From Haloflavibacter putidus (GTDB lineage Bacteria > Bacteroidota > Bacteroidia > Flavobacteriales > Flavobacteriaceae): a DNA stretch of 64,000 bases. The DNA is taken from assembly GCF_006546625.1 (NCBI RefSeq), contig NZ_VIAR01000002.1, positions 186,001 to 250,000 of the forward strand, in the 5' to 3' direction. Shown here in pieces: positions 3,868 through 64,000 of this stretch. Every line of letters starts with the position of its first letter. Positions within the stretch are counted from its first letter, which is position 1. The notes under the pieces were generated by a model that was not told the DNA's origin, searched no databases, and worked only from the letters and a program-made list of their open reading frames with translations. Both the position numbers and the translations under genes were made by a program.

Positions 3868-5019
3868 ATGGAAAGAGCGCATTATTTACAAGATTATACT
3901 AAGTACAAATTAACCGCGATAGAAGGCAGGTATTTTCCTTATCAAGAACTACAGAAAAATATAGAAGCTTATCAAACTGCTTTTAGTTTACAACAAATTG
4001 GTGAGTCGGTTTTAAAACAACCTATTTTTAAATTGCAAATTGGTAATGGAAAGAAAAAGGTTTTGCTTTGGTCGCAAATGCACGGAAACGAAACTACAAG
4101 TACCAAAGCTTTATTAGATGTTATCAATTACTTTAAATTCCGTAAAGCGCAACTTAAAGGTTTTTTAGCAACTGTTAGTTTACATATTATTCCCGTTTTA
4201 AATCCAGATGGTTGCAATGCTTATACGCGTGTAAATGCCAACAATGTAGATTTAAACCGCGATGCCAAGAACCTTTCGCAACCGGAAAGCAAGATTTTAA
4301 AGCAACAATTCGAAAAAATTAAACCGGATTATTGTTTTAACCTACACGACCAGCGCAGTATTTTTAGCGTAGGCTGGTTGTCCAATACCGCTGCGTTATC
4401 TTTTTTGTCGCCGGCAGCAGATGCAGAAAAAACGGTACCAGCTAACAGACTGAAGGCAATGCAGCTTATTAGTGGCATAAACGATGTTTTACAAGAATAC
4501 ATTCCGAATAAAATAGGTCGTTATGACGATACTTTTAATGCTAATTGCGTGGGCGATAGTTTTCAAACTCGTGGCGCTACTACCATACTTTTTGAAGCCG
4601 GCCATTTAGATACAGATTATAAACGCGAGAATACTAGAAAATACTGTTGTTTTGCAATATTAGAGGCCTTAAATCTAATTTATCAAAATTCGTATAAAAG
4701 CTATAAGGTAGAAAATTATGAAGCTATTCCGCAAAATCAAAAATTATTTTTAGATGTAATTATAAGAAATATACACTATCAAAATAAAATTACCGATGTT
4801 GGCATTCATTATAAAGAATGTTTGTTGGGAAATAAGTTGAAGTTTTTGCCGTTTATTAAACACATAAATAATTTAGAATCTTATTATGGACACCGCGAAA
4901 TAGACGCTAACCGCACAAAAATCGTTGTCAATAATACAGATTGTTTTTATTTAGGTACTGAAATTCAGAATTTAGCAATAGAAAATGGATATTTACCGAT
5001 TAATTTAACAATTACTTAG
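3868..5019 (+). CDS. M14 family zinc carboxypeptidase-like peptidase
   Basis: 383 residues with the M14 metallocarboxypeptidase fold signature. The HxxE zinc pair is in MHGNET (H72, E75), substrate-contact residues are in NNVDLNRD (R131), the third zinc ligand is in CFNLHDQ (H160), and a catalytic Glu is probable in ILFEAGH (E243). There is no signal peptide, so it acts in the cytoplasm, perhaps on peptides or amidated metabolites. It resembles the DUF2817/succinylglutamate-desuccinylase-like side of M14 more than digestive carboxypeptidases. It is divergent from the XRE regulator, and the operators between them suggest regulated expression. The ATG at 3868 fits the promoter spacing. Confidence 0.85.
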   Translation: MERAHYLQDYTKYKLTAIEGRYFPYQELQKNIEAYQTAFSLQQIGESVLKQPIFKLQIGNGKKKVLLWSQMHGNETTSTKALLDVINYFKFRKAQLKGFLATVSLHIIPVLNPDGCNAYTRVNANNVDLNRDAKNLSQPESKILKQQFEKIKPDYCFNLHDQRSIFSVGWLSNTAALSFLSPAADAEKTVPANRLKAMQLISGINDVLQEYIPNKIGRYDDTFNANCVGDSFQTRGATTILFEAGHLDTDYKRENTRKYCCFAILEALNLIYQNSYKSYKVENYEAIPQNQKLFLDVIIRNIHYQNKITDVGIHYKECLLGNKLKFLPFIKHINNLESYYGHREIDANRTKIVVNNTDCFYLGTEIQNLAIENGYLPINLTIT

Positions 5020-5031
5020 ATTTTTATCGTG

Positions 5032-5059
5032 TTTGTTGAATAAAATTGTTTTATTTTTG
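5032..5059 (+). promoter_or_regulatory. Bacteroidota-type promoter of the Lrp/AsnC gene
   Basis: TTTG at 5032-5035 and TATTTTTG (TAnnTTTG) at 5052-5059 with a 16-base spacer, 33 bases before the ATG at 5093. Confidence 0.55.
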
Positions 5060-5092
5060 CGTTTCGTTTTATAAATTATAATCAATATTAAA

Positions 5093-5575
5093 ATGGCAAG
5101 ATTTAAGTTAGACGAAATAGATCATAAAATTCTAGATATTTTAATAGATCAAACTCGTACCCCTTTTACAGACATTGCAAAGAAGTTAGATATTTCTGCG
5201 GGAACCGTGCATGTAAGAGTTAAGAAAATGGAGGAAGCAGGAATTATTACCGGTTCTTCTTTAAATTTGGATTATAAAAAATTAGGCTATGCATTTATAG
5301 CTTATGTAGGGGTTTTTCTACAGAAAACTTCGCAAACCAAATTTGTTTTAGAACGTATTAATGAGATTCCTTATGTTACCGTGGCACACGTTACTACCGG
5401 TAAGTTTAATATCTTTTGTAAAATTAGAGCGCGCGACACAGAGCACGCAAAGCAGGTAATTTTCCTTTTAGACGATATAGAAGGTGTATACCGTACAGAA
5501 ACTATGATATCTTTGGAAGAAAGCCTAAACGACAAAAAACGTTTAATGCATTCTATTTTTAAGGAAATCTCTTAA
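5093..5575 (+). CDS. Lrp/AsnC family transcriptional regulator
   Basis: 160 residues, the usual length for Lrp/AsnC feast/famine regulators. The N-terminal winged HTH covers about residues 6-60 (LDEIDHKILDILIDQTRTPFTDIAKKLDISAGTV), and an alpha/beta RAM/AsnC effector domain covers 65-150 with the GKFNIFCKI and DIEGVYRTETMI strands. Such proteins form octamers that bind amino acids. The specific target cannot be read from this window. The gene is monocistronic, with its own promoter and a strong terminator shared with yebC. Confidence 0.93.
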   Translation: MARFKLDEIDHKILDILIDQTRTPFTDIAKKLDISAGTVHVRVKKMEEAGIITGSSLNLDYKKLGYAFIAYVGVFLQKTSQTKFVLERINEIPYVTVAHVTTGKFNIFCKIRARDTEHAKQVIFLLDDIEGVYRTETMISLEESLNDKKRLMHSIFKEIS

Positions 5576-5596
5576 ATAATTTCTTTAAAATTTAAG

Positions 5597-5648
5597 AAAA
5601 GCTGTTTAAAATTAAATTCGTTTTCACGAAATATTTTAAACAGCTTTT
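5597..5648. terminator. Bidirectional rho-independent terminator (Lrp gene / yebC)
   Basis: A 16-bp perfect stem (AAAAGCTGTTTAAAAT at 5597-5612 pairs with 5633-5648), a 20-base loop, and a T-run after either arm. It lies between convergent genes. Confidence 0.85.
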
Positions 5649-5649
5649 T

Positions 5650-6357: not shown

Positions 6358-6385
6358 AGTAAATTTATTTGTCGGTAAAAATATA

Positions 6386-7866: not shown

Positions 7867-7873
7867 GTAAATT

Positions 7874-12523: not shown

Positions 12524-15085
12524 CTAAGACTCTTTTTTCTCTGGTTTAGGCTTATCTATTTTAACGGTCAATTCATTTTTTTTCTTGTCCAAGTCCATAA
12601 TAATATTATCTCCTTCTTGAATTTTGGAGGTAATTATTTTTTCGGCTAATACATCTTCTACATATTTTTGAATTGCTCTTTTTAATGGTCTGGCTCCATA
12701 TTGTCTATCAAAGCCTTTATCTGCTAAATAATCTTTGGCAGCGTCTGTTAATGTTAAATTATAACCTAAATCTGCAATTCTAACATATAATTTTTCTAAT
12801 TCTATATTTATAATCTTATGTAAGTGCTCTCGTTCTAAAGAGTTAAAGATTACCACATCGTCAATACGGTTTAAAAACTCTGGCGCAAAAGATTTTTTCA
12901 AAGCATTTTCTATAATGCTTCTGGTATTTTCATCTGCTTGATCTTGTCTTGCCTTGGTACCAAAACCAACTCCTTGCCCAAAATCTTTAATTTTACGGGC
13001 TCCAATATTAGAAGTCATTATAATAACCGTATTTCTAAAGTCTATTTTCCTGCCCAAGCTATCGGTTATATAGCCATCATCTAGAATTTGCAGAAGCATA
13101 TTAAATACATCTGGATGGGCTTTTTCTACTTCGTCTAATAAAACTACTGCATAAGGTTTACGACGAACTTTTTCTGTTAATTGTCCGCCTTCTTCGTAAC
13201 CAACATATCCCGGAGGCGCTCCAATTAATCTAGATACGGCAAATTTTTCCATATATTCACTCATATCTATTCTAATTAAAGTGTCTTCGTTATCAAACAT
13301 TTGCTTGGCTAACACTTTGGCTAACTGAGTTTTTCCTACTCCGGTTTGCCCTAAAAAGATAAACGAACCAATTGGTTTATTAGGATCTTTAAGTCCGGCG
13401 CGGTTACGTTGTATAGCTTTTACGACCTTGCCAACAGCTTCGTCTTGGCCAATTACTTTTCCTTTAATGCGGTCGGGCAATTCTGCCAATTTATTACTTT
13501 CTGTTTGGGCAATTCTATTTACAGGAACTCCCGTCATCATAGAAATAACATCTGCTACATTATCTTCGGTAACCGTTTCTTTGTGTTCTTTAGATTCTTC
13601 TTCCCACTTAAGTTGGGCTTCTTCTAATTCTTTTTCCAAATTTTTCTCATCATCCCGAAGTTTGGCTGCCTCTTCATATTTCTGTTTTTTAACCACAGAG
13701 TTTTTGGTTTCTCTAACTTCTTCCAATTTCCGTTCTAAATCTAATATGCGTTTGGGAACATCTATATTGGTAATATGAACACGAGATCCGGCTTCATCCA
13801 TCGCATCAATAGCTTTGTCTGGCAAAAAACGTTCAGACATATAGCGATTGGTTAATTTTACACAGGCTTCAATAGCACCTTTTGTATATTCTACGCTATG
13901 GTGAGACTCATATTTTTCTTTAATATTGTTTAAAATTTCAATAGTCTGCTCTACGCTGGTAGGTTCTATTAATACTTTTTGAAAACGTCGCTCTAAAGCG
14001 CCATCTTTTTCTATATGTTGTCTGTATTCATCCAGAGTGGTAGCCCCAATACATTGTAGTTCTCCGCGCGCTAAAGCAGGTTTAAACATATTGCTGGCAT
14101 CTAAACTTCCGGTGGCACCGCCGGCCCCTACAATGGTATGAATTTCATCTATAAATAAAATTATATCGTCGTTTTTCTCGAGCTCGTTCATTACAGCTTT
14201 CATACGCTCTTCAAACTGTCCGCGGTATTTGGTTCCCGCTACCAAGCTTGCCAAATCTAAGGTAACTACACGTTTATCAAATAATATTCTGGATACTTTG
14301 CGTTGTACAATCCGTAAAGCTAAACCTTCTGCAATAGCACTTTTACCTACTCCCGGTTCGCCAATTAATAAAGGGTTGTTCTTTTTACGTCTACTTAAAA
14401 TTTGTGAAACGCGTTCTATTTCTTTTTCACGACCAACTACGGGATCTAATTTACCCTCGTCTGCCATTGCGGTTAAATCTCTACCAAAATTATCTAAAAC
14501 CGGAGTTTTGGATTTTTTGCTTCCTTTTCCTTTTTTTCCTTGTGTGTCGCCAAATGGATTGTTTTTGGTAGCATCTCCGGAAGGTGAATCTTCATTAGAA
14601 AAAGATTCGGATGTGGGGCTATCTATAAAATCGTCGTCTTGTGTTATCATTGCTTTAAACTCTCCTTTTACGTTATCGTAATCTATATTTAATTTATTGA
14701 ATAACTTTGTGGTAGGATCGTTCTCATTCCGTAAAATACACAACAATAAATGCGCGGTGTTTATAGATGAACTCTGAAACAGTTTGGCTTCTAAAAACGT
14801 AGTTTTAAGCGCTCGCTCTGCTTGTCGGGTTAGGTGTAAATTCTTTTTCTCGTTAGAAAGATTAGCAGATTCCGGATTGGCCGGACTAAGAATTTCTACT
14901 TTTCTCCTAAGGTGATCTAAATCTATATTTAAAGAATCTAGTATATCTATTGCTTTACCGTTACCATCGCGTATAAGACCAAGTACCAAATGCTCGGTAC
15001 CAATAAAATCGTGCCCCAAACGTAAAGCTTCTTCTTTACTATAGGTAATTACATCTTTTACTCGTGGTGAAAAATTATCGTCCAT
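12524..15085 (-). CDS. clpC: ATP-dependent Clp protease ATP-binding subunit ClpC
   Basis: 853 residues, the typical ClpC length. Clp N repeats cover about 1-145 ([21 protein letters not shown]). The first AAA+ module has Walker [10 protein letters not shown] (242-250) and [15 protein letters not shown]-domain region lies around 430-480 ([20 protein letters not shown]). The second AAA+ module has GQTGVGKTQ and the [11 protein letters not shown] pore loop. ClpC unfolds substrates for ClpP in the cytosol and in Gram-positives uses adaptor proteins; the adaptor here is unknown. The linker at 150-200 is unusually polar (Ser, Gly, Lys). A purine-rich site precedes the ATG. TAACTTTG at 15115-15122 (complement) could be its -7 box. 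Confidence 0.97.
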
Positions 15086-22682: not shown

Positions 22683-23879
22683 ATGAAAACCCGCGTGGCA
22701 ATAACCGGTATGGGAGTCATCTCTGCTATTGGCAACACAGTAGCCGAAAATTTTGCCAGTCTATGTAATTCTGAATCAGGTTTACGTCATCTCGATTTTT
22801 TAGACACCAAACACGCAAACAATTATTTATTTGGAGAAGTTAAACAAAGCAATACGGCATTGGTGCAAAAATTAAACCTGCCTAACGATAATAATTTTAC
22901 CCGTGGAGCTTTATTGGCAAGCCTCGCAGCCAAAGAAGCTCTAAAAAACGCAAATTTAGAAAATTTACCGCGCGATTTAGCTTTTATAAATGCCACAAGC
23001 GTGGGAGGTATGGATTATACCGAAAAATATTACCGTAAGTTTTCCGACAAGCAGAAAACACAAAAATATATAGAAGCGCAACATCCGGGTTTTACTACAG
23101 ATGTTATTGCCGCACATTTAGGTTGTAAAAATCTGGTAACCACCATTAGTACAGCTTGTTCCAGCAGTGCAAACGCTATTTTAACGGGCACCAAACTGAT
23201 AGAAACCAACAAAGCCAAACAGGTTTTGGTTGGCGGGACAGATTGTTTGTCAAAATTTACCATTAATGGTTTTAAAAGTTTGTTGATTTTGTCTGAAAAA
23301 GCCTGTAAAGCCTTTGATGAAAATCGGGATGGCTTAAACCTGGGCGAAGCGGCAGCTTATTTAGTTTTAGAAAGCGAAGAAACTGCAAAACAAAGAAATC
23401 AACCTATTTTAAGCTATTGCAGTGGTTATGCCAACGCAAACGATGCTTACCACCAAACCGCTTCTTCGGCTACCGGCGAAGGAAATTATTTGGCCATTCA
23501 GCAAGCTTTGCAAAAAGCAAATTTAGACGCTTCTCAAATAGATTATATTTTGGCGCATGGCACGGCAACGATTAATAACGATGTATCGGAAGGCAAAGCG
23601 CTACAACGTATTTTTAAGAATTTTAATTTACCTCCGGTAAGTTCTACCAAAGCCTTTACCGGTCATACTTTGGGCGCTGCCGGCGCAGTAGAGGCTGTTT
23701 TTGCTATCTTAGCTTTGCAAAAACAAGTGGTTTTTAAAAATTTAAATTTTAAAAACAAAATGCCCGAAACTTCTATAAAACCGGTAGAAGATTTTCAGAC
23801 AAATAGAAACCAACACGTTTTGTCTAATTCTTTTGGGTTTGGCGGTAATTGTACCAGTTTAATTTTCAGTAAAGCATAG
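22683..23879 (+). CDS. Beta-ketoacyl-ACP synthase (FabF-like), pigment cluster
   Basis: 398 residues with a full Cys-His-His triad: Cys159 in STACSSSAN, His292 in LAHGTATINND, Lys323 and His328 in STKAFTGHTLGAAGAVE. It is closer to canonical FabF than the first ketosynthase. It is probably the catalytic half of a heterodimer with the following triad-less protein, as KS-alpha and chain-length factor are in type II polyketide synthases. That gene abuts it with no gap. Confidence 0.93.
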   Translation: MKTRVAITGMGVISAIGNTVAENFASLCNSESGLRHLDFLDTKHANNYLFGEVKQSNTALVQKLNLPNDNNFTRGALLASLAAKEALKNANLENLPRDLAFINATSVGGMDYTEKYYRKFSDKQKTQKYIEAQHPGFTTDVIAAHLGCKNLVTTISTACSSSANAILTGTKLIETNKAKQVLVGGTDCLSKFTINGFKSLLILSEKACKAFDENRDGLNLGEAAAYLVLESEETAKQRNQPILSYCSGYANANDAYHQTASSATGEGNYLAIQQALQKANLDASQIDYILAHGTATINNDVSEGKALQRIFKNFNLPPVSSTKAFTGHTLGAAGAVEAVFAILALQKQVVFKNLNFKNKMPETSIKPVEDFQTNRNQHVLSNSFGFGGNCTSLIFSKA

Positions 23880-24947
23880 ATGGAACCCAAAATTTACATA
23901 AACGGCACCGGTTCTATTTCTGCACAAAAAGCAAGTTTACAGGCTTTAGAGGGTCCAAATCTATATAATGCGCCAGTTTTAAAACATTGTTTTACAGATT
24001 TTAAGAAATATATTAGTCCGAGAGAAATGCGACGTATGTCTACTGCGGTAAAATTGGGCGTAGCAGCTGCAAATGCTAGTTTAGAAGATGCCAATGTAAA
24101 AGAATTATCCGGTATTTTGGTAGGAACAGGTATGGGATGTAAACAGGATTCTGATATTTTTCTGGAAGATATGCTGCAGAATAAAGAAGATTTTTTAACG
24201 CCAACCAAGTTTATACAATCTACCCACAACACGGTTTCAGGGCAAATTGCTTTACAATTAGATTGTAAAGCTTATAATACTACGTATGTACAAAGTTCGG
24301 TTTCTTTTGAAAGTGCTTTCTTAGATGCCGAAATGGAATTACAAACCGCCAAAAAGCACAAAAACTATCTAGTTGGTGGGGTAGACGAAATTTCTGATTA
24401 TAGTATAGATTTGCAACGCTTAGATGGACAAATAAAAGAAGAGAACTTTACCAATACACATTTAATGCAGCACATTTCTCCAGGAAGTATAATAGGCGAG
24501 GGGGCTTCTTTTTTTGTGTTGAGTAACTTCAAAAAAGCTAATTCTTATGCCCAATATTTAGGCAACAAAATTTATAATCAGTTGCAAGAAGATGAAGTCG
24601 AAATGGCTTTACGGAATTTTTTACAAGAAAAGGAAATAACGCTGAAAGATATTGATGCTATAATTTTAGGGCAAAATGCGATGCTGGTAGATCAGCCATA
24701 TTTTTCGGTTTTTTCTCAAGGAAAGTTGCAAGATATTCCGCAGTTATACTATAAACATTTGGTAGGCGAATTTTACACCGCTTCTGCCTATGCTTTTTGG
24801 TTGGCTTGTCATATTTTAAAAGAAGGTAAAATTCCACAAAGTTGTAAATTAAATCAGTTCCAAATCCGTAAAAAGCCTGAGTATATCTTATTATACAATG
24901 TATACCGTGGTAAAAACCATAGTTTTAGTCTTTTGCGCACATGTTAA
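23880..24947 (+). CDS. Ketosynthase-like protein without catalytic residues (chain-length-factor-like)
   Basis: 355 residues with the ketosynthase fold outline (YINGTGSISAQ start; MRRMSTAVKLGVAAANASLEDA; GILVGTGMGCKQDS; YLVGGVDEISDY; IIGEGASFFVLS). At the expected active site the sequence reads YVQSSVSFES, with no Cys. The HGT block is replaced by ILGQNAM and the GHT block by LVGEFYTASAY, so all three catalytic residues are gone. This matches chain-length-factor-type partners known from type II PKS and aryl-polyene systems. It starts directly after the stop of the active ketosynthase and overlaps the deacetylase gene by seven bases. Confidence 0.82.
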   Translation: MEPKIYINGTGSISAQKASLQALEGPNLYNAPVLKHCFTDFKKYISPREMRRMSTAVKLGVAAANASLEDANVKELSGILVGTGMGCKQDSDIFLEDMLQNKEDFLTPTKFIQSTHNTVSGQIALQLDCKAYNTTYVQSSVSFESAFLDAEMELQTAKKHKNYLVGGVDEISDYSIDLQRLDGQIKEENFTNTHLMQHISPGSIIGEGASFFVLSNFKKANSYAQYLGNKIYNQLQEDEVEMALRNFLQEKEITLKDIDAIILGQNAMLVDQPYFSVFSQGKLQDIPQLYYKHLVGEFYTASAYAFWLACHILKEGKIPQSCKLNQFQIRKKPEYILLYNVYRGKNHSFSLLRTC

Positions 24948-25711
24948 AATTTAAGAGCATAAATTATCTTTTTATAGGGCTTTTTCTCTTGCTTAGTTTA
25001 CTGGTTTTTCGCTATTCCTGGCCAATTTATACTTATTTAATTCTCGGAGCTTTTTGGTTTGGAATTACCATTTGGGGCGCCACCAATGTTAGGACAAATT
25101 ATTTTTTTGAAGCACTACATCAAAAGAAAACCACCCAAAAAAAAGTGGCTCTAACTTTTGACGATGGACCAAACACACAAACCGAAGCTATTTTGCAGCT
25201 GTTGGCAAAACATAATGTAAAAGCTACTTTCTTTTGTATAGGACATAAAATTGACGAAAATCCGCAGCTTTTTAAAAAAATTATAGAAGCCGGCCATAGC
25301 GTTGGCAATCATACATATAGTCATCCAAAAAACTTTGGATTTTTATCTTCCAAAACCGTACAACGCGAAATCGAGAGTTGCGATCGGGCGGCTTTTAGTC
25401 ACGGTAATATTCGGTTAAATATGTTTCGGGTTCCTTTTGGGGTTTCTAATCCTAAGGTTAAAAAAGCACTTAAAAAAACAAAACACACACCAATTGGTTG
25501 GAGTTTGCGCTCTTTTGATGCATTATTTTCTTCGGAAAAATATATTTTAAAACGTTTGACCAAAAATATAAAACCCGGTAAAATTATTCTGTTACACGAC
25601 TCAAAACCACACACGGTTCGTATCTTGGCAGAATTGTTGCTATTTTTAGAAAATAATGATTACACTTGCGAAAGCGTAGATAAATTACTCAAAATCAATG
25701 CGTATAAATAG
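24941..25711 (+). CDS. Polysaccharide deacetylase family protein (NodB domain)
   Basis: 256 residues: two N-terminal membrane helices (about 8-22 and 28-48) followed by a NodB carbohydrate-esterase-4 domain. Motif 1 is LTFDDGP (D74, D75) and motif 2 is GNHTYSH (H124, H128); the late motif LLHD is present. CE4 enzymes remove acyl groups from N-acyl sugars. Within this cluster it may deacylate the polar headgroup or an acylated pigment precursor at the inner membrane; this is inference from context. It overlaps both neighbours, so it is firmly part of the operon. Confidence 0.88.
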   Translation: MLKFKSINYLFIGLFLLLSLLVFRYSWPIYTYLILGAFWFGITIWGATNVRTNYFFEALHQKKTTQKKVALTFDDGPNTQTEAILQLLAKHNVKATFFCIGHKIDENPQLFKKIIEAGHSVGNHTYSHPKNFGFLSSKTVQREIESCDRAAFSHGNIRLNMFRVPFGVSNPKVKKALKKTKHTPIGWSLRSFDALFSSEKYILKRLTKNIKPGKIILLHDSKPHTVRILAELLLFLENNDYTCESVDKLLKINAYK

Positions 25712-26324: not shown

Positions 26325-26344
26325 TTTTTATTTCAAATTTTTTT

Positions 26345-26713
26345 ATGGATAAGCAATTATACGTCCAAAAAAGGCATATTCAAAACGAAAACGAATCTGA
26401 AAGTTGGGTAGTTTTAAATTCTGAACACGCTATTTTTAAAGGTCATTTTCCTAAAAATCCTATTTTACCGGGAGTAGTTTTAATTGATATTTTTAAAAAA
26501 GAAGCAGAAAACTATTCGCAAGAAAAATTATTAATTAACCATATAAAAAACGTGAAGTTTTTAAAGGTGGTAAAAGTAGAAGAGGAGACGAGTTTAAAAT
26601 TATTGACTATTTTTAAAACTTCGGAAAATAAATTACACCTTTTCGGAAAAGCTTTTGACGCCCAAAATAACTTGGTAGCTAAATTACAACTGGAACTAAC
26701 CTCTTTTGAATAG
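26345..26713 (+). CDS. Second hotdog-fold dehydratase-like protein (FabZ/FabA type)
   Basis: 122 residues. The FabZ catalytic loop is recognisable in FKGHFPKNPILPG (H34). The Glu found one helix later in FabZ appears as Asp (LIDIF, D48), so activity is possible but altered. It may act as a second dehydratase/isomerase or a thioesterase-like hotdog in polyene assembly. It lies 20 bases after the LolA-like gene and six before the glycosyltransferase gene. Confidence 0.75.
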   Translation: MDKQLYVQKRHIQNENESESWVVLNSEHAIFKGHFPKNPILPGVVLIDIFKKEAENYSQEKLLINHIKNVKFLKVVKVEEETSLKLLTIFKTSENKLHLFGKAFDAQNNLVAKLQLELTSFE

Positions 26714-26719
26714 CCATTT

Positions 26720-30361: not shown

Positions 30362-30411
30362 TTTTTACCATATTTTTACTTTTGAACAAAACCAAACCCA
30401 ATTTACTTATT

Positions 30412-32070: not shown

Positions 32071-32077
32071 AAATTGC

Positions 32078-38758: not shown

Positions 38759-41700
38759 TTGCTGCTTTTTATTGTTTTGTTTTTGGTATTTTCTATCCCG
38801 GGTGTTCAAACTTCTGTAGCTAAGAAAATAGTTGGCAGTTTAAACCAAACTTATGGAACAGATATCCGTTTAAACAAAATTAGTTTGTCTTATGATGGTA
38901 ATGTGGTTCTAGATGAAGTTTATATTGCAGACCACCATCAAGATACGCTCATAAGTGCGCAAGAATTAGAAACTTCTATTCTTAATCTTCCCGGCTTATT
39001 GTCTGGGCAGCGTTTAGATTTTGGCGATGTTACTGCACAAAAATTAAAGTTACGCTTGGTTCGTTATGAAGGAGAAGACAGCGATAATATTAGCATTTTT
39101 GCAGATAAATTTGACGATGGCAAACCCAATACCAATAATTTTAAGCTTAGTATAAGTCATATTATTGCTACCAATAGTGAGTTTAGCTACGAAGACAGAT
39201 CTTTAGAAACGCCAGAGATTATAAGCCTTTCAGAATTAAACATTAATGCCAAAAACCTTTTGGTTGCTGGTAAAGATGTGTTTTTGGATGTTAACACGAT
39301 GTGCGGAAAAGAAAAACGCGGCTTGGTTATAGATAATCTTTCTACCAATTTTGCTTACACTTCTACTAAGATGGAGTTACAAAACCTGCATTTAGAAACC
39401 CCGCAATCTACCCTTAACGGCTCGATTGTATTTTTATACGACAATCCGGAGCAGATGGGCGATTTTGAAAACAAGGTAAAAATAAAAGCCAATTTTGATA
39501 AAACCGAAATAGCCACCAGCGACTTACACGTTTTCTACGATGAATTAGGTTCTTCCGAAAGGATTGTTTTTTCTGGAGAAATGCAGGGAACATTAAACAA
39601 TTTTTCTTTAGAAAACTTACAATTGCGCGGGATGGACAGAACGGTTATTGCCGGCAATCTACAATTTGACAATATCTTTACGGAAAATAAAAACAATTTT
39701 GCCGTAAGTGGTGATTTTACAGAATTAGCAACCAATTATTACGATTTAGCTAATTTACTGCCCAATATTCTTGGCAATAATCTACCGAAAGAATTGCGCC
39801 AATTGGGCAATATAAACCTACAAGGTTATTTAAAAGCAACGCCAACTACGGTTTCTACCAATTCTAAGGTAAATACACAATTGGGTAGTGCCAATTTACA
39901 AATAGATTTAGGAGATTTGCACGATCCTGATTTTGCTACCTATAAGGGTAAAGTGCGCATCAATAATTTTAATTTAGGAAAACTTTTAGGAAATAAAAAT
40001 TTAGGGAAAGCAAGTTTCACTGCAAATGTAGATGGTAGTGGTTTAACCCAACAAACTTTAAATACCAGCTTAAATGGCACGATAAACAACTTTACTTTTA
40101 ACGATTATACCTATAATAATATAGAGGTTTTAGGCGTGGTGAGACACTCTATTTTTAACGGAAAGTTAGTTAGTGACGATCCTAATTTAAAATTAGAATT
40201 TAATGGTTTGGCAGATGTAAGCACCCAAACCGGAATATATGATTTTAAAGCAGATGTAAATTATGCAGATTTGCACGCGCTCAATTTTGTGAAGCGCGAC
40301 ACTCTTTCTGTTTTTAAAGGTTTAGTAAGTATGAATATGCGTGGCGAAAACCTAAATGATGCCCGCGGACAAATTTTGTTGCAAGATGCTAGTTATAAAA
40401 ACCAAGAAAATCTTTATGAGTTTGATCAACTGCGCATTACTTCTTCTTTTGATGAAGAAGTGCGCACCATACAAATAAACTCGCCAGATATTATAGATGG
40501 TGAAATTGTAGGGAAATTCAACATACGAGAAATACCTGCTATTTTTGAAAATGCTTTGGGCAGTCTTTACACTAATTACAGTCCAATTGCCATAGAAAGC
40601 GACCAATATTTAGATTTTAATTTTGATGTTTACAACAAAATAATAGAAGTCGTGCTGCCCGATATTACTTTGGCACCCAACACATTTATAAAAGGAAGAG
40701 TAGAATCTACCGATTCTGATTTTAAACTCACTTTTAAATCGCCTCAAATAAAAGCTTATGGTAATACTTTAGAAAATGTAAACTTGCAAGTAGATAACAC
40801 CAATCCGCTATTTAATACTTTTATAGATATTGACAGCGTTTCTACCGGATTTTATAATTTCTCTAAAGTAAATTTGATTAACGTAACCTTAAACGACACG
40901 CTTTTTGTACGGTCTGAGTTGCAAGGCGGCAGCAACAATAACGATGAGTATAATCTTAGTTTTTACCATACTATTAACGAGGAAAATAAATCTGTTGTAG
41001 GTATACGTAAAAGCAATGTAAAATTTAAAGAAAGTACGTGGTTTTTAAACCCAAATAAAAAAGAAAGCACCCAAATTGTATTCGATAAAAACATAAATAA
41101 TTTCCAGTTAGACACTTTGGTAATGCGTCATAAAAACGAGTTGATTAGGCTTAGTGGTGCAATGCGCGATTCTACTTCCAAAAATTTTAAATTAGACTTT
41201 ACGGATGTAGACTTGGCTAAAATAACCCCCGATATAGAAAATTTAAAACTGTCTGGTACCGTTAATGGCGATTTGCATTTTCTTCAAGAAGAAGGTGTTT
41301 TTAAACCAACTTCTTCCTTAAAAATAAAAAATATAGGAATTAACACGATAGATTACGGTAATTTAAAATTAGAAATAGCTGCTAACGAAAATCTCACCAA
41401 ATATAATATAGATGCGCTTTTAGGCCGGGATGAAAAAGATTTCCTTTCGGCTACCGGTAGTATTAACGTTGCAGAAGAAAACCCCAGTATAGATTTGGAT
41501 GTAGAATTAGATAAATTTGCGCTTGCCGGCTTTAGTGCGTTGGGTACAGATGTGGTTTCTAACATCCGGGGTTTTGCATCAGGGCAAGCAAAAGTAAGCG
41601 GCAATTATACTAATCCGGATATTGAAGGAAGTTTGCGTTTAAGTCAAGCTGGAATTAAAATTCCGTACTTGGAAGTAGATTTAGATATGGAAGAAAATGC

Positions 41701-46683: not shown

Positions 46684-49386
46684 TTATAAGTTTCTGTCGC
46701 GTTCTCGGTTTTTATCATATTTAATATCGCTCAACACATTCGCCTTAATTCCTATAAAGAAATACCAAGATTCTCGTATTCCAAAGGGAGTCCAGTTAAA
46801 AGACATTCGCCAACTTTCTAAATCTCTCGAAAAACGAAGTTGTGTGTAAGTAAAGCCTTTATTTTTAATATCATAACCAGACGAAGCTCCCACAGACCAA
46901 CGCGGAGATAGTTCTACATCTCCAGAAAACATAAGCGAGTGTGAAGAAATCTCGTTTTGACGCGCTGTATTGTTGTACGTCATTGTGTAGGATAAGCGTA
47001 AATTCCACGGAATTTTATAGTGATATCGCTCGGTATCGTTGGTAACCGGCTCGTCATCTTCTTCTTTTTCATCATAGAAAGTACCGTCTAAATCCATTCC
47101 TTTTCCAAACAAATCGTCTGGTCTACCGCCGTTTCTAAAAGTTTCGTTTTCTAACTCGTCTGTGTTTTTTTCGCCACCTTCAAAATCTGTGCTAGAAAAA
47201 GAGTAACCAAAACTTACATTTGCCCGTGTTAATCGAAATAGACTACCACCGTTGTTAATATTCCACTCGTCTATAATTTGGTTGTTGTTATCTAACGCAT
47301 ATGGGTCTAAAGCTCCGTTAAAATTAACGTCTAATTTATTCTGAATAATAGGAAGGGTTCCTCTAAAACTAACGGGTTGGAAATGTATAGAGTCTGCTGC
47401 AAAATCATAAGAAGTATTAAATTGTAAGTTGCTAAGCAGCTTTACTTTACGTGGTTCTTCTTCAAGCGTGTCTTTAGTAGCTACTTTCGCTTCAAAATCG
47501 TTGGTTACCGAAAATCCTAAAGAACTGGAATAATTTTTATTTGGCGCTCCGTAAAGAGAACTTTCAAACCGCGAATATTCTCTAATTTCGTCTTCCAAAC
47601 CGCCCGTTCCAGGAATTAAATAAGTATCGTAATAACGGTCAAAAGACGGATTAATATTATAACTTAAGTTGGGCTTAATAACGTGCCGAATGGCTTGTAT
47701 TTTACTTCCTTTTTTAAAATTTACTTTTCCGTAAACCGTAGTACCAATATTAGCGTTAAAATCATAAGTTCTATAGGCATCAAAACCATTTATAGTATCT
47801 GTAATTACTTCTTGGTTTTGTTGGTCGTACGACTTTTCGTAGGTTTTAAAAACCCAATTTTCTCTAAAGTTGGTTCCGGTAGATACACTAAAGTAATTGA
47901 AAAGTTTAAAATTGGTGCTTATAGGTATGCTGTGTTGAATACCGGTTCTTGCGGTTTTAAACATTTCGGGTTTAAAAAATAAAGAATCTGAAGTTTTAAA
48001 ACGGTTTTCTCCTTTAAAGTTGTACTGAAAATTTATATTTTGAATAATACCTTTTTTAGCTCCTGTTTTTGGTTCAAACGGGTAAATTCTACTCAGACTT
48101 GCCTGCACCGTTGGCAATGTCATATTTATCTCTTGGGTTTGTGTGTTTTGGTTGTGTGTAGCAGCGATATTAAGGTTTATTTCCGGTTCTCCGGGAAAGC
48201 GTTTAGAATAAGATACCGAAGAACTTAAATTGTTATTTAAAAAACTACCGGTATTGGTTTGGTTTATGGTTTCTTGGTAATAACGGCTACTTCCTAAGTT
48301 TACCGAAGCAGAAAACCTAGAATTCGGGTTGGCTTTAGCGTCTTGCGTATGCGACCATCTAATGTTATAGATAGAAGATTCGCTAAAATCCGGGAAACCG
48401 CGTTCACTATTTAATAAGCGTTCATATCTAAAACTCAAATTACCACGAAAATTATAGCGCAAAGCATAATTAGATTCTAAGCGCATAGCATAACTCCCGT
48501 TGGTGTAATAATCTCCCAAGGCAGCAAAATCAAAATACTCGCTTACCGCGAAATAATAGCCGCCATTCATTAAAAAATAACCGCGATTTCTATTATCGCC
48601 AAAAGAAGGAATTATAAATCCGGAAGCACGTTCATCTGTTAGCGGAAAATAACCAAAAGGCAAACCCAGCGGAGTAGGAACGTCTGCGATATACATATTT
48701 ACCAAACCGGCAACAATTTTTTTATCGGGTACCATTTTTATTTTCCGGGCGTAAAAATAATAGTCGGGATTATCTATATCTTGCGCAGTGGTAAATTTGA
48801 CATTGCGCATAAAAATAACCGAATCGTTTTCGCGCTTGGTTATCTGTCCTTTTACATTAAAATCGCCTTGTTTGGTTCTGGAGTTGTATACCAAAGCCTT
48901 TTCGGTTTTAAAATTAAAACGAATGCTGTCTGGTTCTACTTTATTATTTATTTGCTCAAAAACGGGTTTCTGCGTGTATTCTCCCAAAGAATCTTCAATA
49001 CCAAAAGCATAGACTTCTTCTTTTTGGTTATCTAAAATAATTAAACCGGCGCTTATTTTTATATCGCCGTAATTTATTTTTGCTTCATTGTAAAGATAAA
49101 CGCGTTCATTTTTTCGGTCAAACCGAATATAATCTTCTGCAGAGTAAATAACATCCGCGGTAAGCGAAGATTGTTGTTTTACCTTTACAGAATCGCTCTT
49201 TACCGTGTCTTGCTCTTTTAAATTTAGCGGGTTTAAAATAGAAGTAGAGTCGGCTTCTTTAAAGGCAGGTAGCTCTATTGCCGGAATTTTTGGTTTGCTA
49301 ACTGTATCTATTTCTTGCGCAAAAACAGGCTTGCCAATAAAGAAAACCGAAAATAATAAAAGTATGTATTGTATATTTGTGCGCAA
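46684..49386 (-). CDS. lptD: LPS-assembly protein LptD-like outer-membrane protein
   Basis: 900 residues starting at TTG 49386; the following codons give a good signal peptide (IQYILLLFSVFFIGKPVFAQ). An N-terminal OstA/LptA-like periplasmic domain covers about 90-230 (AEDYIRFDRKNERVYLYNEA, VYAFGIEDSLGEY). The rest is a large beta-barrel with the LptD core (VPTPLGLPFGYFPLTDERASGFIIPSFGDN). It would insert lipopolysaccharide in the outer leaflet. The paired Cys pattern of enterobacterial LptD is not evident, as in other Bacteroidota. It lies divergent from the amidase gene. Confidence 0.9.
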   Translation of the reverse strand: MRTNIQYILLLFSVFFIGKPVFAQEIDTVSKPKIPAIELPAFKEADSTSILNPLNLKEQDTVKSDSVKVKQQSSLTADVIYSAEDYIRFDRKNERVYLYNEAKINYGDIKISAGLIILDNQKEEVYAFGIEDSLGEYTQKPVFEQINNKVEPDSIRFNFKTEKALVYNSRTKQGDFNVKGQITKRENDSVIFMRNVKFTTAQDIDNPDYYFYARKIKMVPDKKIVAGLVNMYIADVPTPLGLPFGYFPLTDERASGFIIPSFGDNRNRGYFLMNGGYYFAVSEYFDFAALGDYYTNGSYAMRLESNYALRYNFRGNLSFRYERLLNSERGFPDFSESSIYNIRWSHTQDAKANPNSRFSASVNLGSSRYYQETINQTNTGSFLNNNLSSSVSYSKRFPGEPEINLNIAATHNQNTQTQEINMTLPTVQASLSRIYPFEPKTGAKKGIIQNINFQYNFKGENRFKTSDSLFFKPEMFKTARTGIQHSIPISTNFKLFNYFSVSTGTNFRENWVFKTYEKSYDQQNQEVITDTINGFDAYRTYDFNANIGTTVYGKVNFKKGSKIQAIRHVIKPNLSYNINPSFDRYYDTYLIPGTGGLEDEIREYSRFESSLYGAPNKNYSSSLGFSVTNDFEAKVATKDTLEEEPRKVKLLSNLQFNTSYDFAADSIHFQPVSFRGTLPIIQNKLDVNFNGALDPYALDNNNQIIDEWNINNGGSLFRLTRANVSFGYSFSSTDFEGGEKNTDELENETFRNGGRPDDLFGKGMDLDGTFYDEKEEDDEPVTNDTERYHYKIPWNLRLSYTMTYNNTARQNEISSHSLMFSGDVELSPRWSVGASSGYDIKNKGFTYTQLRFSRDLESWRMSFNWTPFGIRESWYFFIGIKANVLSDIKYDKNRERDRNL

Positions 49387-54381: not shown

Positions 54382-57288
54382 ATGAAAAAAAGTCTTCTTT
54401 TCTGTTTTTTACTCTGTTCCTCTTTGGTGTTTTCGCAAAAAAGTCCGCTGGAAAGCGCCAATAAAATTGCACAAAAAAAATGGGTAGATAGTGTTTATAG
54501 TGGTATGAGCTTAGACCAAAAAATTGGTCAGTTATTTATGGTCGATATTTTTTCGAGTAAACCAAAATCGGTCACAGACCATATAAAAACTCTTATAAAA
54601 AATTATCATATTGGTGGGGTTATTTTTTCTAAAGGCGGTCCACAAAGACAAGCAAAACTAAATAACGAATACCAGGAACTCTCAAAGATACCGTTGTTAG
54701 TTGGTATGGATGCAGAATGGGGTTTGTCTATGCGTTTAGATTCTACTTACGCATTTCCGTGGAATATGACACTTGGCGCCATAGAAGACTTAAAAACAGT
54801 TGAGCGCGTAGGAAAACAAATAGGTAAACATAACAAAAGATTGGGCGTGCATATCAATTTTGCGCCCGTGGTAGATATAAACGTAAATCCGGATAATCCT
54901 ATAATTGGCAACCGTTCTTTTGGCGAAAACAAATACAATGTAACCCAAAAAGCCATTGCTTTTATGAAGGGCATGCATAGCGAAAATGTTTTATCTAGCG
55001 CTAAGCATTTCCCCGGACACGGCGATACAGATGTAGATTCTCATAAAGCCTTACCAGTTTTAAATTTTAGTAGAAAACGCCTGGATAGCATAGAATTATA
55101 TCCGTATAAATTAATGATTAAAGCGGGAGTTTCCAGTATAATGGTTGGACATTTAAATGTACCGGTCTTAGATGATAGGAAAAATCATCCTTCTTCTATT
55201 TCCAAACCTATTATTACCAATTTACTGAAAGAAGATTATGGGTATAAGGGTTTAATTTTTACCGATGCCCTGAATATGCGAGGAATTTCGGACTATGATG
55301 AGCCGGGAAAAGTAGATTTGGAAGCTTTTAAAGCGGGTAACGACATCTTGCTTATTCCGGAAAGCGTGCCAAAAGGAGTGGCGCAAATTAAAAAAGCATA
55401 CAAAAGTGGTGAAATAACAGAAAAGCGATTAAAACATTCCGTAAAGAAAATTTTAATGGCTAAATATAAAGTAGGTCTTAATGCGTACAAATCCGTAGAC
55501 ACTACCAATTTAATAAACGATTTAAACACCGCAAAAGACGATTTGATTTATGAAGAAGCCATTGAAAAAGCTATTACACTTATAAAAAATAATCGCGGAA
55601 TTTTACCCATAAAAAAATTAAAAAATACCAAAGTAGCTTACGTAGCTTTAGGAGATAAAAAGGGGGACGATTTTTTAAATACCTTAAAAAAATATACAGC
55701 TGTAGATAAGGTAGAAAGTAATAATTTATCAGAACTTTTAATTAACCTTAAAGAATATGACCACGTAATAGTTGGATTTCATAAAGCAAACCAAAACCCT
55801 TGGCAAGATTATAAATTTTCTAACAAAGAATTACAATGGTTAGATAAAATTGCCGCTCAAAACCTAACTATTCTAAGCCTATTTGCAAGGCCTTATGCTT
55901 TGTTAGATGTAGATAGTTTTACCAATATAGATGCAATTTTGGTTGCTTATCAAAATAGCAAAATAGCGCAAGAAAAAGCTGCTCAAATTTTATTTGGTGC
56001 TTTAGGAGCCAAAGGTAAATTACCTGTTAGTATTGGCAATACTTTTCCGGTAGGCACACAGTATAAAACAAATTCTATTGGCCGATTATCTTACGGCACT
56101 CCAGAAAGTGTAGATATAGATTCTAGAAAATTGACGGTAATAGACTCTTTAGCAAAAATTGCGGTAGCTAATAAAATGACGCCGGGCTTACAACTGGTTA
56201 TAGCACGAAAAGGTCGGGTGTTTTATCATAAAAATTTTGGCTACCATACCTACGCAGAAAAACAAAAGGTAAAAAATGACGATGTATACGATCTTGCTTC
56301 TCTAACCAAAATTTTAGCAACTCTGCCAAGAATTATGGAGCTGCAAGAGAAAGATATTATCAGTATGCATACTACTTTGCAAGAAATCTTACCGGAATTA
56401 CGAGATACCAATAAAGCAAATATTACTTTAAAAGAAATGCTTAGTCATTATGCGCGTTTAAAACCTTGGATTCCTTTTTACATTGCTACTATAGACGAAG
56501 AAACAAATAAAGCTTCTACAAAATATTTTAAACGAAATAAATCGGGGAAATTCTCTGTTAAAGTTGCTGAGAATTTCTATATGCGCCAAGACTTACAAGA
56601 CACGATATATAAAGCTATAGCAAACAGCGAACTTCGAGAAAAATTAGAATACAAATACTCAGATTTACCCTACTATTTTTTAAAGCGCTTTATAGAACGT
56701 GCCTATGCTTCTTCTTTAGACTATTTATCGCAAGAACATTTGTATAAAATTATTGGCGCAAACAGAACCGGTTATTTACCGTTAAATCGGATAGATAAAA
56801 ATAACATTATTCCTACAGAAATAGACGATTACTGGCGCGAGCAAAAAATACAAGGTTATGTGCACGACCAAGGCGCAGCTATGCAAGGAAGTATTGGTGG
56901 TCACGCAGGTGTTTTTAGCAATGCTAATGATGTGACCAAAATCATGCAAATGTATTTGAACGGCGGCTACTATGGTGGGAGAAATTACTTTAAAAGAGAA
57001 ACTATAAACGCCTTTAATACTTGTTATTACTGCGATGAAGACGTGCGTAGAGGAGTGGGTTTTGATAAACCGCAATTAGAAGAAGTAGGACCAACTTGTG
57101 GCTGCGTTTCTATGAATAGTTTTGGCCATACCGGTTTTACCGGAACTTATGCGTGGGCAGATCCGGATGAAGAAATTATATATGTTTTTCTTTCTAACAG
57201 AACCTTCCCAGATGCCACCAATAGAAAATTAATAACAGAAGACATCCGAACAAAAATACAAGCTGCAATTTATCAAGCTATAGAGTAA
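54382..57288 (+). CDS. GH3 glycoside hydrolase fused to a beta-lactamase-type serine hydrolase
   Basis: 968 residues with a signal peptide (LLFCFLLCSSLVFSQ). Residues about 35-370 form a GH3 beta-N-acetylglucosaminidase-like barrel: NagZ-type loop KHFPGHGDTDVDSH (208-221) and nucleophile D295 in IFTDALNMRG. A GH3 C-terminal domain covers about 395-560. Residues about 580-965 form a serine hydrolase with SxxK at 640-643 (DLASLTK), YSD near 745 and HTG near 915. Fusions of this type are typical of Bacteroidota and are likely to act on periplasmic peptidoglycan fragments; the order of reactions is unknown. Confidence 0.9.
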   Translation: MKKSLLFCFLLCSSLVFSQKSPLESANKIAQKKWVDSVYSGMSLDQKIGQLFMVDIFSSKPKSVTDHIKTLIKNYHIGGVIFSKGGPQRQAKLNNEYQELSKIPLLVGMDAEWGLSMRLDSTYAFPWNMTLGAIEDLKTVERVGKQIGKHNKRLGVHINFAPVVDINVNPDNPIIGNRSFGENKYNVTQKAIAFMKGMHSENVLSSAKHFPGHGDTDVDSHKALPVLNFSRKRLDSIELYPYKLMIKAGVSSIMVGHLNVPVLDDRKNHPSSISKPIITNLLKEDYGYKGLIFTDALNMRGISDYDEPGKVDLEAFKAGNDILLIPESVPKGVAQIKKAYKSGEITEKRLKHSVKKILMAKYKVGLNAYKSVDTTNLINDLNTAKDDLIYEEAIEKAITLIKNNRGILPIKKLKNTKVAYVALGDKKGDDFLNTLKKYTAVDKVESNNLSELLINLKEYDHVIVGFHKANQNPWQDYKFSNKELQWLDKIAAQNLTILSLFARPYALLDVDSFTNIDAILVAYQNSKIAQEKAAQILFGALGAKGKLPVSIGNTFPVGTQYKTNSIGRLSYGTPESVDIDSRKLTVIDSLAKIAVANKMTPGLQLVIARKGRVFYHKNFGYHTYAEKQKVKNDDVYDLASLTKILATLPRIMELQEKDIISMHTTLQEILPELRDTNKANITLKEMLSHYARLKPWIPFYIATIDEETNKASTKYFKRNKSGKFSVKVAENFYMRQDLQDTIYKAIANSELREKLEYKYSDLPYYFLKRFIERAYASSLDYLSQEHLYKIIGANRTGYLPLNRIDKNNIIPTEIDDYWREQKIQGYVHDQGAAMQGSIGGHAGVFSNANDVTKIMQMYLNGGYYGGRNYFKRETINAFNTCYYCDEDVRRGVGFDKPQLEEVGPTCGCVSMNSFGHTGFTGTYAWADPDEEIIYVFLSNRTFPDATNRKLITEDIRTKIQAAIYQAIE

Positions 57289-62033: not shown

Positions 62034-62039
62034 TTATTC

Positions 62040-62858
62040 CTAATTAAAGCTATATGAATCAATAACTTGTGATAAAACGGCGTGGTATTCTAAACTGGGT
62101 ATGTTTATTTCGCTTATGGCTTCGGTAGCAATATCGTATTGGGTTTCGTTGTAAATAAGTCCAATGTCTTTTGCAAAGTAATTGGTAGAACTTATTACTT
62201 CGGTTTCATCTAACAGCGGTAGGCTTATAAAACCACCAACAATGGCGCTTATGCTCATTCTTAAACCTATTTTGGAGGTTATTACATCTGCAAAACTTTC
62301 CGTAGCAACGCTATAATTATCCAGTTTTTGGCCTTGATCTATAAAAATGTCATAGTCTATAACCAAATCAAAACTTTGTCCTTCAAAACTAAGTTCTTGC
62401 GTTATTTGATTAGAATTAGAAAATAAATTGGTTCCGGCGCTAGCTGCTTTATCATACAATTTCGCATTTTCTATACTAAATACAATAGGTTCTAGGTTTA
62501 TTGGAAAAGAACCAAATTCACTTAAATCTATAGTTAAAGCGCCATTATATAGCAAACTATTGTTTTGTTTGGTTACTTCGCCATTAGTTAAAATGCTAGA
62601 TGCAAAACCGGTTAAGATATCGCCTTCTCGCTCAAAAGTATAGGCGTTGTTGCCGGCATCTACTGCTGTAAGCGTTTCTGTGCCTTCTTGGTTCTCTTGT
62701 TGCTCTATGTTAAGGCGGTTAGTGTACGTCCAAGAATTATTATTTTCTAACGGATAATAATTCGCAAGGTTAGAATTTAGTACATCAGAATCATCATCAG
62801 AGCAACCTACGGTAAAAAACAATAATGTAATTCCGCAAAGAAAAAGCAGTTTTCTCAT
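62040..62858 (-). CDS. Lipoprotein of unknown function
   Basis: 272 residues. Lipoprotein signal LLFLCGITLLFFTVGC with lipidated Cys19, followed by an acidic SDDDSDV stretch that in Bacteroidota often accompanies surface-exported lipoproteins. The mature protein is beta-rich (YYPLENNNSWTYTN, a pattern seen in many flavobacterial surface proteins). I do not recognise a domain. It ends six bases from the convergent dehydrogenase gene and is divergent from aroC. Confidence 0.78.
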   Translation of the reverse strand: MRKLLFLCGITLLFFTVGCSDDDSDVLNSNLANYYPLENNNSWTYTNRLNIEQQENQEGTETLTAVDAGNNAYTFEREGDILTGFASSILTNGEVTKQNNSLLYNGALTIDLSEFGSFPINLEPIVFSIENAKLYDKAASAGTNLFSNSNQITQELSFEGQSFDLVIDYDIFIDQGQKLDNYSVATESFADVITSKIGLRMSISAIVGGFISLPLLDETEVISSTNYFAKDIGLIYNETQYDIATEAISEINIPSLEYHAVLSQVIDSYSFN

Positions 62859-62975
62859 AATTTTTAAGTTTTATCAAATATACATATTCAAAGGTTTTTA
62901 AACCGCATTTTTTTATTATTGTAGAAAATAAGCGGGATAATTTAAATTCTATTTTCAGATATTGGTATAAAAAAT

Positions 62976-62983
62976 TACATTTG
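62976..62983 (+). promoter_or_regulatory. -7 box of the aroC promoter
   Basis: TACATTTG, exact TAnnTTTG, 14 bases before the aroC ATG. No convincing -33 TTTG at standard distance (nearest TTG is 62962-62964). Confidence 0.4.
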
Positions 62984-62997
62984 TTAAAAAGCTATCT

Positions 62998-64000
62998 ATG
63001 GCAGGCAACTCTTTTGGCAAACTTTTTAAACTAACTACTTTTGGCGAATCGCACGGCAAAGCCATTGGTGGTATTTTAGATGGTTGTCCGGCAAATTTAG
63101 AGCTAGATTTAGAAGCTATTCAAAAAGATCTAGATCGTAGAAAACCGGGTCAATCTGCTATTGTTACGCAACGTAAAGAGAGCGATATTGTAGATTTTCT
63201 TTCCGGAATATTTCAAAACAAAACTACCGGAACACCAATTGGATTCCAAATTGTAAATAAAGACTATAAATCCCGCGACTATGAACATATAAAAGATGTT
63301 TACCGGCCAAGTCACGCAGATTTTACCTACGATAAAAAATACAAACACAGAGATTATCGTGGCGGCGGTCGTGCAAGCGCACGAGAGACAGCTTGTAGGG
63401 TAGTAGCGGGCGCTATTGCAAAACAAGTAATTAGCAAGGTAAAAATTCAAGCTTTTGTGAGTGCTGTGGGAGAAATAGAATTAAAAAAAGACTTTACGGA
63501 AATAGATTTATTTGAAACAGAAAACAATCCTGTGCGTTGTCCAGATAAAAAAACTGCCGAAAAAATGGAAACTTACCTGAGAAAAATCCGTAAAGAAGGC
63601 GATACCGTTGGGGGCGTGGTAACTTGCGTTATAGAAAATGTACCTATAGGTTTGGGCGAACCTGTTTTTGATAAATTACACGCAGATTTAGCAAAAGCAA
63701 TGCTTTCTATAAATGCGGTAAAAGGTTTTGAGTACGGAAGCGGTTTTGAAGGTGCTAAAATGCGCGGGAGCAATCATAACGATAGTTTTAATACAGATAG
63801 CAGCACCAAAACCAATTATTCCGGTGGCATACAAGGTGGTATTTCTAACGGGATGCCAATTTATTTTAAAGTAGCGTTTAAACCTGTAGCAACCTTAATG
63901 CAGAAACAGCAAACTATAAATAGTAAAAACCAAGTGGTAGAAATGCAAGGTAAAGGCAGACACGACCCTTGTGTAGTGCCACGCGCTGTACCAATAGTAG
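62998..64000 (+). CDS. aroC: Chorismate synthase (3' end outside window)
   Basis: The frame from ATG 62998 stays open to the window end (334 codons of about 350-360). The start [21 protein letters not shown] is the chorismate synthase signature with the FGESHG active-site motif. [18 protein letters not shown] and [21 protein letters not shown] follow, as do [21 protein letters not shown]-like segments. The enzyme uses reduced FMN to convert EPSP to chorismate, the last step of the shikimate pathway, supplying aromatic amino acids. Two copies of the dispersed motif family occur here (63493 exact; 63588 with one mismatch). Confidence 0.97.

Follow-up and report, generated by a model that had tools for sequence, protein, structure and literature searches.

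Two families of DNA uptake sequences are known, both with type IV pili, and the same two are named in PMC5031613. The uptake signal sequence (USS) of Haemophilus influenzae has 1,465 core copies, AT-tracts beside the core and lineage-specific variants, and the 10-mer DNA uptake sequence (DUS) of Neisseria meningitidis has 1,892 copies (PMC7811141). Dialects of DUS differ by one or a few bases between species (PMC3630211). Here we consider a short word, CTTTACGGAA, in the genome of a marine Mesonia, a genus of Flavobacteriaceae in the phylum Bacteroidota. Our starting point was a stretch of 64,000 nucleotides of contig NZ_VIAR01000002.1 (hereafter the window), for which the earlier note, made from the letters alone, had pointed to an excess of the 9-mer TTTACGGAA and likened it to an uptake sequence. 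The statistics of the motif, its dialects, its conservation and the gene inventory, from which we infer uptake and competence, make it probable that CTTTACGGAA is a DNA uptake sequence of this Mesonia.

Transformation of Riemerella needs ComEC, DprA, ComF, RecA and four new proteins; these new essentials include an HHH protein, and an adjacent CarboxypepD_reg outer-membrane protein and DUF5689/DUF5017 protein (PMC8459023). In R. columbina own DNA competes best, and Table 3 of the same paper ranks k-mers by raw count, giving A/T-rich words whose role is left open there (PMC7965970). The earlier note knew of no uptake motif for Riemerella or other Flavobacteriaceae, and our literature search agrees: among the matches listed, none describes an uptake motif for Bacteroidota or Flavobacteriaceae (subscription papers lie mostly outside its coverage), and on the word TTTACGGAA none of the matches listed is relevant by title.

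Abundance of the word and its nature as a DNA signal

The window holds 31 exact copies of TTTACGGAA, 16 on the plus and 15 on the minus strand, and in 100 dinucleotide shuffles of the window the mean is 1.34 and the largest count 5, so that none of the 100 reaches 31. At 23 of the 31 sites the preceding base is C. The resulting 10-mer, CTTTACGGAA, is the most over-represented 10-mer of the window (23 copies against 0.42 expected under a third-order Markov model). This recount agrees exactly with the copies, strands and positions in the earlier note. The excess extends across the source genome of the window (G000, a 53-contig draft of 2,923,547 bases), where the reversed words serve as controls: TTTACGGAA has 953 copies (493+460; control 72) and CTTTACGGAA has 746 (376 and 370 on the two contig strands; control 8), or about one per 3.9 kb. 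For the Markov comparison a 464 kb sample of the genome was used, made of 20 stretches and the window; it contains 114 copies of CTTTACGGAA, far above the 2.7 expected. The 10-mer is a better unit than the 9-mer.

Taking open frames of at least 90 codons as crude gene calls, 77 of the copies in the 464 kb sample are genic and 37 lie outside, which corresponds to 0.187 per kb inside and 0.716 per kb outside, a 3.8-fold higher density. One hundred synonymous shuffles of the genes leave a mean of 1.9 copies (maximum 6) in place of the 77, and this rules out an origin of the excess in peptides or codon use. Five reading frames are occupied, and the sixth, which would contain an in-frame TAA, is used by none of the 77 genic copies; the argument of the earlier note that selection acts on DNA and not on a peptide therefore stands. 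Single-base variants of CTTTACGGAA are enriched 3.0-fold in total in the same sample (186 against 62). The most enriched changes are T at position 10 (22 copies, 1.3 expected), T at 7, G at 6 and A at 4; variants at positions 2, 3, 8 and 9 show no excess (16 in all, about 20.6 expected). Immediately on either side of the core the flanks are AT-rich, and around +19/+20 they become richer in GC, as seen in 128 sites of G000 and in 50 sites of a second Mesonia, G310. The AT profiles of the two genomes correlate at 0.66, a value that is no independent replication since many of the sites are orthologous. A mobile repeat was considered and ruled out, as the flanks have no conservation beyond this mild base bias.

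Adjacent CTTTACGGAA sites share their orientation in 49 of 103 pairs, and three 100 kb stretches of G000 are split 10/14, 7/8 and 15/11 between the strands; there is no local strand bias. This bears on two roles within the cell. One is that of a hotspot for recombination like Chi, read by RecBCD or AddAB, for which one could cite that the word is non-palindromic and that its copies per Mb are similar to those of Chi in E. coli. The unbiased orientation speaks against it, and so does a strong presence, in several dialects, in seven of 16 genomes from a single genus, as Chi would be expected to follow a conserved enzyme; we regard such a role as very improbable. The other is that of sites orienting chromosome segregation, like the FtsK-orienting polar sequences (KOPS). 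The abundance of a short non-palindromic word would suit them. KOPS-like sites are strongly strand-biased, however, and the local balance of the strands contradicts this role so directly that it can practically be dismissed. Chi and KOPS were thus both ruled out on strand balance, as the earlier note had proposed from the window.

Less can be made of the spacing. The gaps to which the earlier note had drawn attention (14.7-21.7, 47.7-53.9 and 0-4.1 kb) are unremarkable, as chance spacing predicts 0.78, 1.2 and 3.6 such gaps in the window. Two motif-free gaps do stand out in the 464 kb sample, one of 26 kb (0.046 expected) and one of 18 kb (0.069 expected). The 26 kb stretch (G000:C2:16985-43028, L006-L008; its expectation refers to that 100 kb) has a G+C of 0.326; the 10 proteins scanned in it include hydrolases and products of DUF1828/1829 genes, and the stretch was possibly acquired.

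Dialects and maintenance within Mesonia

Among 298 further genomes drawn from the family, two Mesonia have 70 copies each of CTTTACGGAA, and the top count outside the genus is 59 (control 29). In 197 other genomes of the phylum, partly overlapping with the family sample, the top count is 46 (control 20). Among the sampled genomes a strong excess is found only in Mesonia. We give the counts of CTTTACGGAA, CTTAACGGAA and CTTTACGGATT, in this order, for a set of 16 Mesonia genomes, in which the reversed controls are 5-18, 4-26 and 0-8. Three dialects are present in seven of them: A (CTTTACGGAA), A2 (CTTWACGGAA) and B (CTTTACGGAT/ATT, i.e. CTTTACGGAT(T)). The counts of the seven are 746/54/53 (G000) and 804/67/55 (G310), 255/170/20 (G300) and 263/141/35 (G306), and 70/11/116 (G053), 70/8/109 (G273) and 69/10/113 (G311). 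The other nine genomes are without a strong form of the motif: 18/28/10 (G301), 9/23/2 (G302), 5/19/1 (G305), 5/13/1 (G299), 17/14/3 (G304), 11/24/3 (G308), 7/15/2 (G303), 4/13/1 (G309), and 27/39/13 in G307, where this weak excess of all three words may be a remnant of the motif. In samples of 24-177 kb from the nine, no related word stands out. The strongest words of G307 (GCTTACGCGA, 6 against 0.08) resemble parts of hairpins.

Several other words were noticed in these samples. Palindromic words of the CTTCCGCGGAAG type, enriched in G306, G273 and G300, are probably terminator hairpins. In 64 kb of G303 (L059, L060, L102, L093), TTCAGCA/TGCTGAA has 60 copies where 15.8 are expected, with a weaker excess in G308 and G309 (17 against 4.8 and 4.3). 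Dialects beyond the genus were sought in six Flavobacteriaceae genomes, 35-40 kb each, and in five of these samples even the best 10-mer (z 9-16) falls short of the strength reached in G000 or G310. The sixth, G256 (L125, L126; 40 kb), has five copies of ATGGTGACCC (z 28) and seven of GCTTGGGTAA (z 23), which could be repeats inside genes or a different motif.

The dialects also bear on a further explanation, namely that the copies are binding sites of a regulator or of a protein organizing the nucleoid or chromosome, acting on DNA inside the cell. A short core, dispersed on both strands, denser outside genes and flanked by AT-rich DNA, would be compatible with such sites. However, hundreds of copies are far above the number of the classic sites, such as matS and those of Noc and SlmA. 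Moreover, CTTTACGGAA is at background level (18 copies, control 7) in the relative that LptD places nearest, G301, and a word that changes between lineages would be unusual for an essential housekeeping factor. We consider this explanation unlikely.

If the word is an uptake sequence, it could still be a relic, either because the species stopped taking up DNA or because uptake is now independent of the word. The nine members of the genus that keep the genes described below without a strong motif, and the lower copy numbers in G300, G306 and the dialect B genomes, would agree with this. Against it stands the comparison of G000 with G310 (81.8 kb aligned, 89% identity), in which 26 of 32 sites of G000 are identical in G310, compared with 253 of 661 (38%) composition-matched 10-mers (p 8e-7). 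Seen from G310, 26 of 32 sites are identical against 252 of 695 matched 10-mers. It follows that the motif was maintained recently, and we would give the relic very little weight. Around LptD, an alignment with up to 15 Mesonia genomes has sites at which the codons of other species differ. At position 38374 of the window the codon is CGG in G000 and G310, AAA/AAG in 10 of the 12 other aligned species and GAA in two; in places, then, the word coincides with altered residues.

Transformation genes and a candidate receptor

ComEC, DprA, a protein of about 300 amino acids with two HHH_3 repeats and a DUF5689 lipoprotein were each found in all 16 Mesonia genomes. PF00437, the ATPase of type IV pili and type II secretion, has no match over the cut-off in G000 and G310 (pilins and secretin were not searched), and has one in four of the 16, G304, G305, G308 and G311 (L062-L065; a PilB/GspE-type ATPase). 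A link of type IV pili to the motif was rejected, as only G311 of these four is motif-strong. A type IV pilus is a feature of the known uptake machines and not of the class of uptake sequences.

In G000 the lipoprotein gene lies next to that of an outer-membrane barrel (Table 1), and the gene of a divergent Exo_endo_phos_3 nuclease adjoins the pair. The three genes are together in all 11 genomes in which the locus was read. The lipoprotein of G000 has a full-length match of 330.7 bits to NCBIfam NF052645 ("M949_1556 family lipoprotein"), below the cut-off of 475. We take M949 to be a Riemerella strain; the Riemerella papers found for it fit. In all 16 genomes the signal of the lipoprotein ends in C, followed by VQDDD (15) or VADDD (1), presumably a surface-export signal of Bacteroidota. 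Compared with solved structures, the profile of this putative receptor has one good match, 8jiy, a DUF4955 protein (E 2.3e-8, C-terminal part only), and that of the barrel none with E under 0.7. A second DUF5689 match of 38.5 bits, in a protein with a type IX secretion system (T9SS) sorting tail, lies 32 kb from ComEC (G000:C52:104696-106429; L165:9696-11429); hmmscan of this protein did not list DUF5689. Such a second match is present in 15 of the 16 Mesonia, G301 being the one without.

Trees of the lipoprotein and the barrel were set against those of LptD, ComEC and the nuclease (LptD and ComEC with 16 genomes each, the ComEC of G304 being a piece of 535 amino acids; the barrel with 11); groups were named after the trees had been seen, and the p values are descriptive. 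With LptD and ComEC, dialect A joins G301 (support 100/99 and 84/86), and A2 joins B and G307 (84/88 and 99/98). In approximately unbiased (AU) tests, A+A2 is rejected by LptD (p 0.0005) and by ComEC (2e-11). The lipoprotein tree groups A, A2 and G299 (97/98; A+A2 alone 57/39) and rejects both A+G301 (7e-97) and A2+B (2e-6). A+G301 is likewise rejected by the barrel tree (5e-51), where A, A2 and G299 come together weakly (79/93). The nuclease tree rejects A+A2+G299 (2e-5) and places A2 with G307 and G053 (96/94). The lipoprotein and barrel trees disagree with LptD, ComEC and the nuclease and unite the two CTTWACGGAA lineages (with G299), which makes the barrel-lipoprotein pair a candidate receptor. 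Judged by these trees, barrel and lipoprotein appear to move between species as a cassette, and the two CTTWACGGAA lineages would share one cassette class. That the pair is the receptor is a tentative and testable assignment, on which we lean slightly towards doubt.

Table 1. Sites of the word and its variants in the window, and the two genes of the candidate receptor in the source genome
Feature	Position	Strand	Remark
TTTACGGAA within CTTTACGGAA	4138..4146	-	C before (full 10-mer)
TTTACGGAA	7300..7308	-	A before
TTTACGGAA within CTTTACGGAA	8239..8247	-	
TTTACGGAA within CTTTACGGAA	9073..9081	-	inverted pair with 9109
TTTACGGAA within CTTTACGGAA	9109..9117	+	inverted pair with 9073
TTTACGGAA	11001..11009	+	T before
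TTTACGGAA	11923..11931	+	G before
variant CTTTACGGAT	14310..14319	-	dialect word of G053/G273/G311
TTTACGGAA	14727..14735	-	T before
TTTACGGAA within CTTTACGGAA	21682..21690	+	G310 differs by one base
TTTACGGAA within CTTTACGGAA	21870..21878	-	10-mer identical in G310
TTTACGGAA within CTTTACGGAA	24608..24616	+	10-mer identical in G310
TTTACGGAA within CTTTACGGAA	28037..28045	+	10-mer identical in G310
TTTACGGAA within CTTTACGGAA	30331..30339	-	G310 differs by one base
TTTACGGAA	30809..30817	+	A before; present in G310 too
TTTACGGAA within CTTTACGGAA	31708..31716	+	10-mer identical in G310
TTTACGGAA within CTTTACGGAA	32019..32027	-	10-mer identical in G310
TTTACGGAA within CTTTACGGAA	32689..32697	+	10-mer identical in G310
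TTTACGGAA within CTTTACGGAA	32846..32854	+	G310 differs by one base
TTTACGGAA within CTTTACGGAA	33637..33645	+	G310 has TTTTACGGAA
TTTACGGAA	37449..37457	-	T before
TTTACGGAA within CTTTACGGAA	38373..38381	-	identical in G310, absent in the 12 other aligned species
TTTACGGAA within CTTTACGGAA	39677..39685	+	absent from G310
variant CTTTACGGAT	41197..41206	+	G310 has CTTTACGGAA
TTTACGGAA within CTTTACGGAA	44535..44543	+	10-mer identical in G310
TTTACGGAA within CTTTACGGAA	44764..44772	-	10-mer identical in G310
TTTACGGAA	46052..46060	-	G before
variant CTTTACGGAG	47547..47556	-	present in G310 too
TTTACGGAA	47727..47735	-	G before
TTTACGGAA within CTTTACGGAA	53911..53919	+	absent from G310; G053/G273/G311 have TTTTACGGAT here
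TTTACGGAA within CTTTACGGAA	55437..55445	-	exact only in G310, G300, G306 among 15 aligned genomes
TTTACGGAA within CTTTACGGAA	57982..57990	-	absent in the 5 aligned genomes
TTTACGGAA within CTTTACGGAA	59382..59390	+	
TTTACGGAA within CTTTACGGAA	63493..63501	+	
variant CTTTACGGAT	63586..63595	-	
barrel	G000:C52:6780-9569 (L164)		Pfam: CarboxypepD_reg; Plug 22.7 bits, cut-off 23.9
lipoprotein	G000:C52:9599-10945 (L164)		Pfam: DUF5689, DUF5017

Two other features of the window may be mentioned. The open frame of 968 amino acids at 54382-57288 encodes a fused enzyme, a glycoside hydrolase of family 3 (N and C domains) with a beta-lactamase/transpeptidase-like domain. At 22683-33343, two ketoacyl-synthase-like proteins, an MMPL exporter, an AAT acyltransferase-like protein and an AMP-binding enzyme are encoded together, a group that in our estimation resembles an aryl polyene/flexirubin-type cluster. 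A peptide-pattern search of the genome contigs gave one relative of the MMPL protein.

A possible mechanism and comparison with known systems

The likeness to an uptake sequence, which the earlier note had proposed, is supported by the dialects, the AT-rich flanks, the excess outside genes, the conservation and the transformation gene set. Of the outcomes that the earlier note had named as refuting it, none came about as far as the draft genome shows. If CTTTACGGAA is an uptake sequence, a surface DNA receptor would prefer fragments that hold it. The outer-membrane step would probably do without a type IV pilus and proceed via the barrel and surface lipoprotein at G000:C52:6780-10945, with specificity residing in the lipoprotein (DUF5689 and DUF5017) or in the whole pair. 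Fragments would cross the outer membrane and arrive at ComEC as single strands, and DprA and RecA would recombine the incoming DNA. By such biased uptake and recombination the word would accumulate through molecular drive, on both strands and mostly where proteins tolerate it. The dialects of the genus, CTTTACGGAA, CTTWACGGAA and CTTTACGGAT(T), would then stem from shifts in the specificity of the receptor.

Several points weigh against this interpretation. We found no competence or uptake experiment on Mesonia in the literature. All 16 genomes have the gene set, nine of them without a strong motif, so its presence alone does not predict the motif. The dialect B genomes hold just 109-116 copies of CTTTACGGATT and 69-70 of CTTTACGGAA. 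G299 shares its receptor class with the motif-rich genomes yet lacks the motif; the same holds, at a greater distance, for G302 and G304, which lie next to this class. The nuclease tree neither rejects nor shows A+G301 (p 0.39), and the link between dialect and receptor comes from about three lineages and was noticed post hoc from the trees. Finally, the 26 kb and 18 kb gaps contain ordinary-looking genes (10 and 6 scanned), by which a lack of the motif from islands is weakly addressed.

A bolder suggestion, which we hold with rather more doubt than conviction, is that Mesonia has a third uptake-sequence system of independent origin, which would be the first of Bacteroidota. Instead of a pilin, a SusC/SusD-like pair of barrel and surface lipoprotein would read the word, and the allele classes of this pair, exchanged between species, would determine the dialect. 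If true, this would be a third origin of self-recognition in bacterial sex, on another machine, in a Flavobacteriaceae genome with no pilus ATPase over the cut-off. The word itself could serve to probe for the receptor and to approach the outer-membrane step in Bacteroidota directly, and the natural dialects predict which receptor alleles should prefer which word.

With the USS of Pasteurellaceae (AAGTGCGGT in Haemophilus influenzae) the Mesonia word shares its shortness, both orientations, AT-rich flanks and lineage-specific variants. It differs in its unrelated sequence and in its phylum, and the USS is tied to a type IV pilus, the ATPase of which has no match over the cut-off in G000. Like the DUS of Neisseriaceae (ATGCCGTCTGAA), it belongs to the words of 10-12 bases with dialects; again the sequences are unrelated, and the candidate in Mesonia is a lipoprotein with a TonB-receptor-like barrel. 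Riemerella (Flavobacteriia) is without an established uptake motif, but by domain content and order the two are alike in their machinery, since Mesonia has ComEC, DprA, the HHH protein and the barrel-lipoprotein pair.

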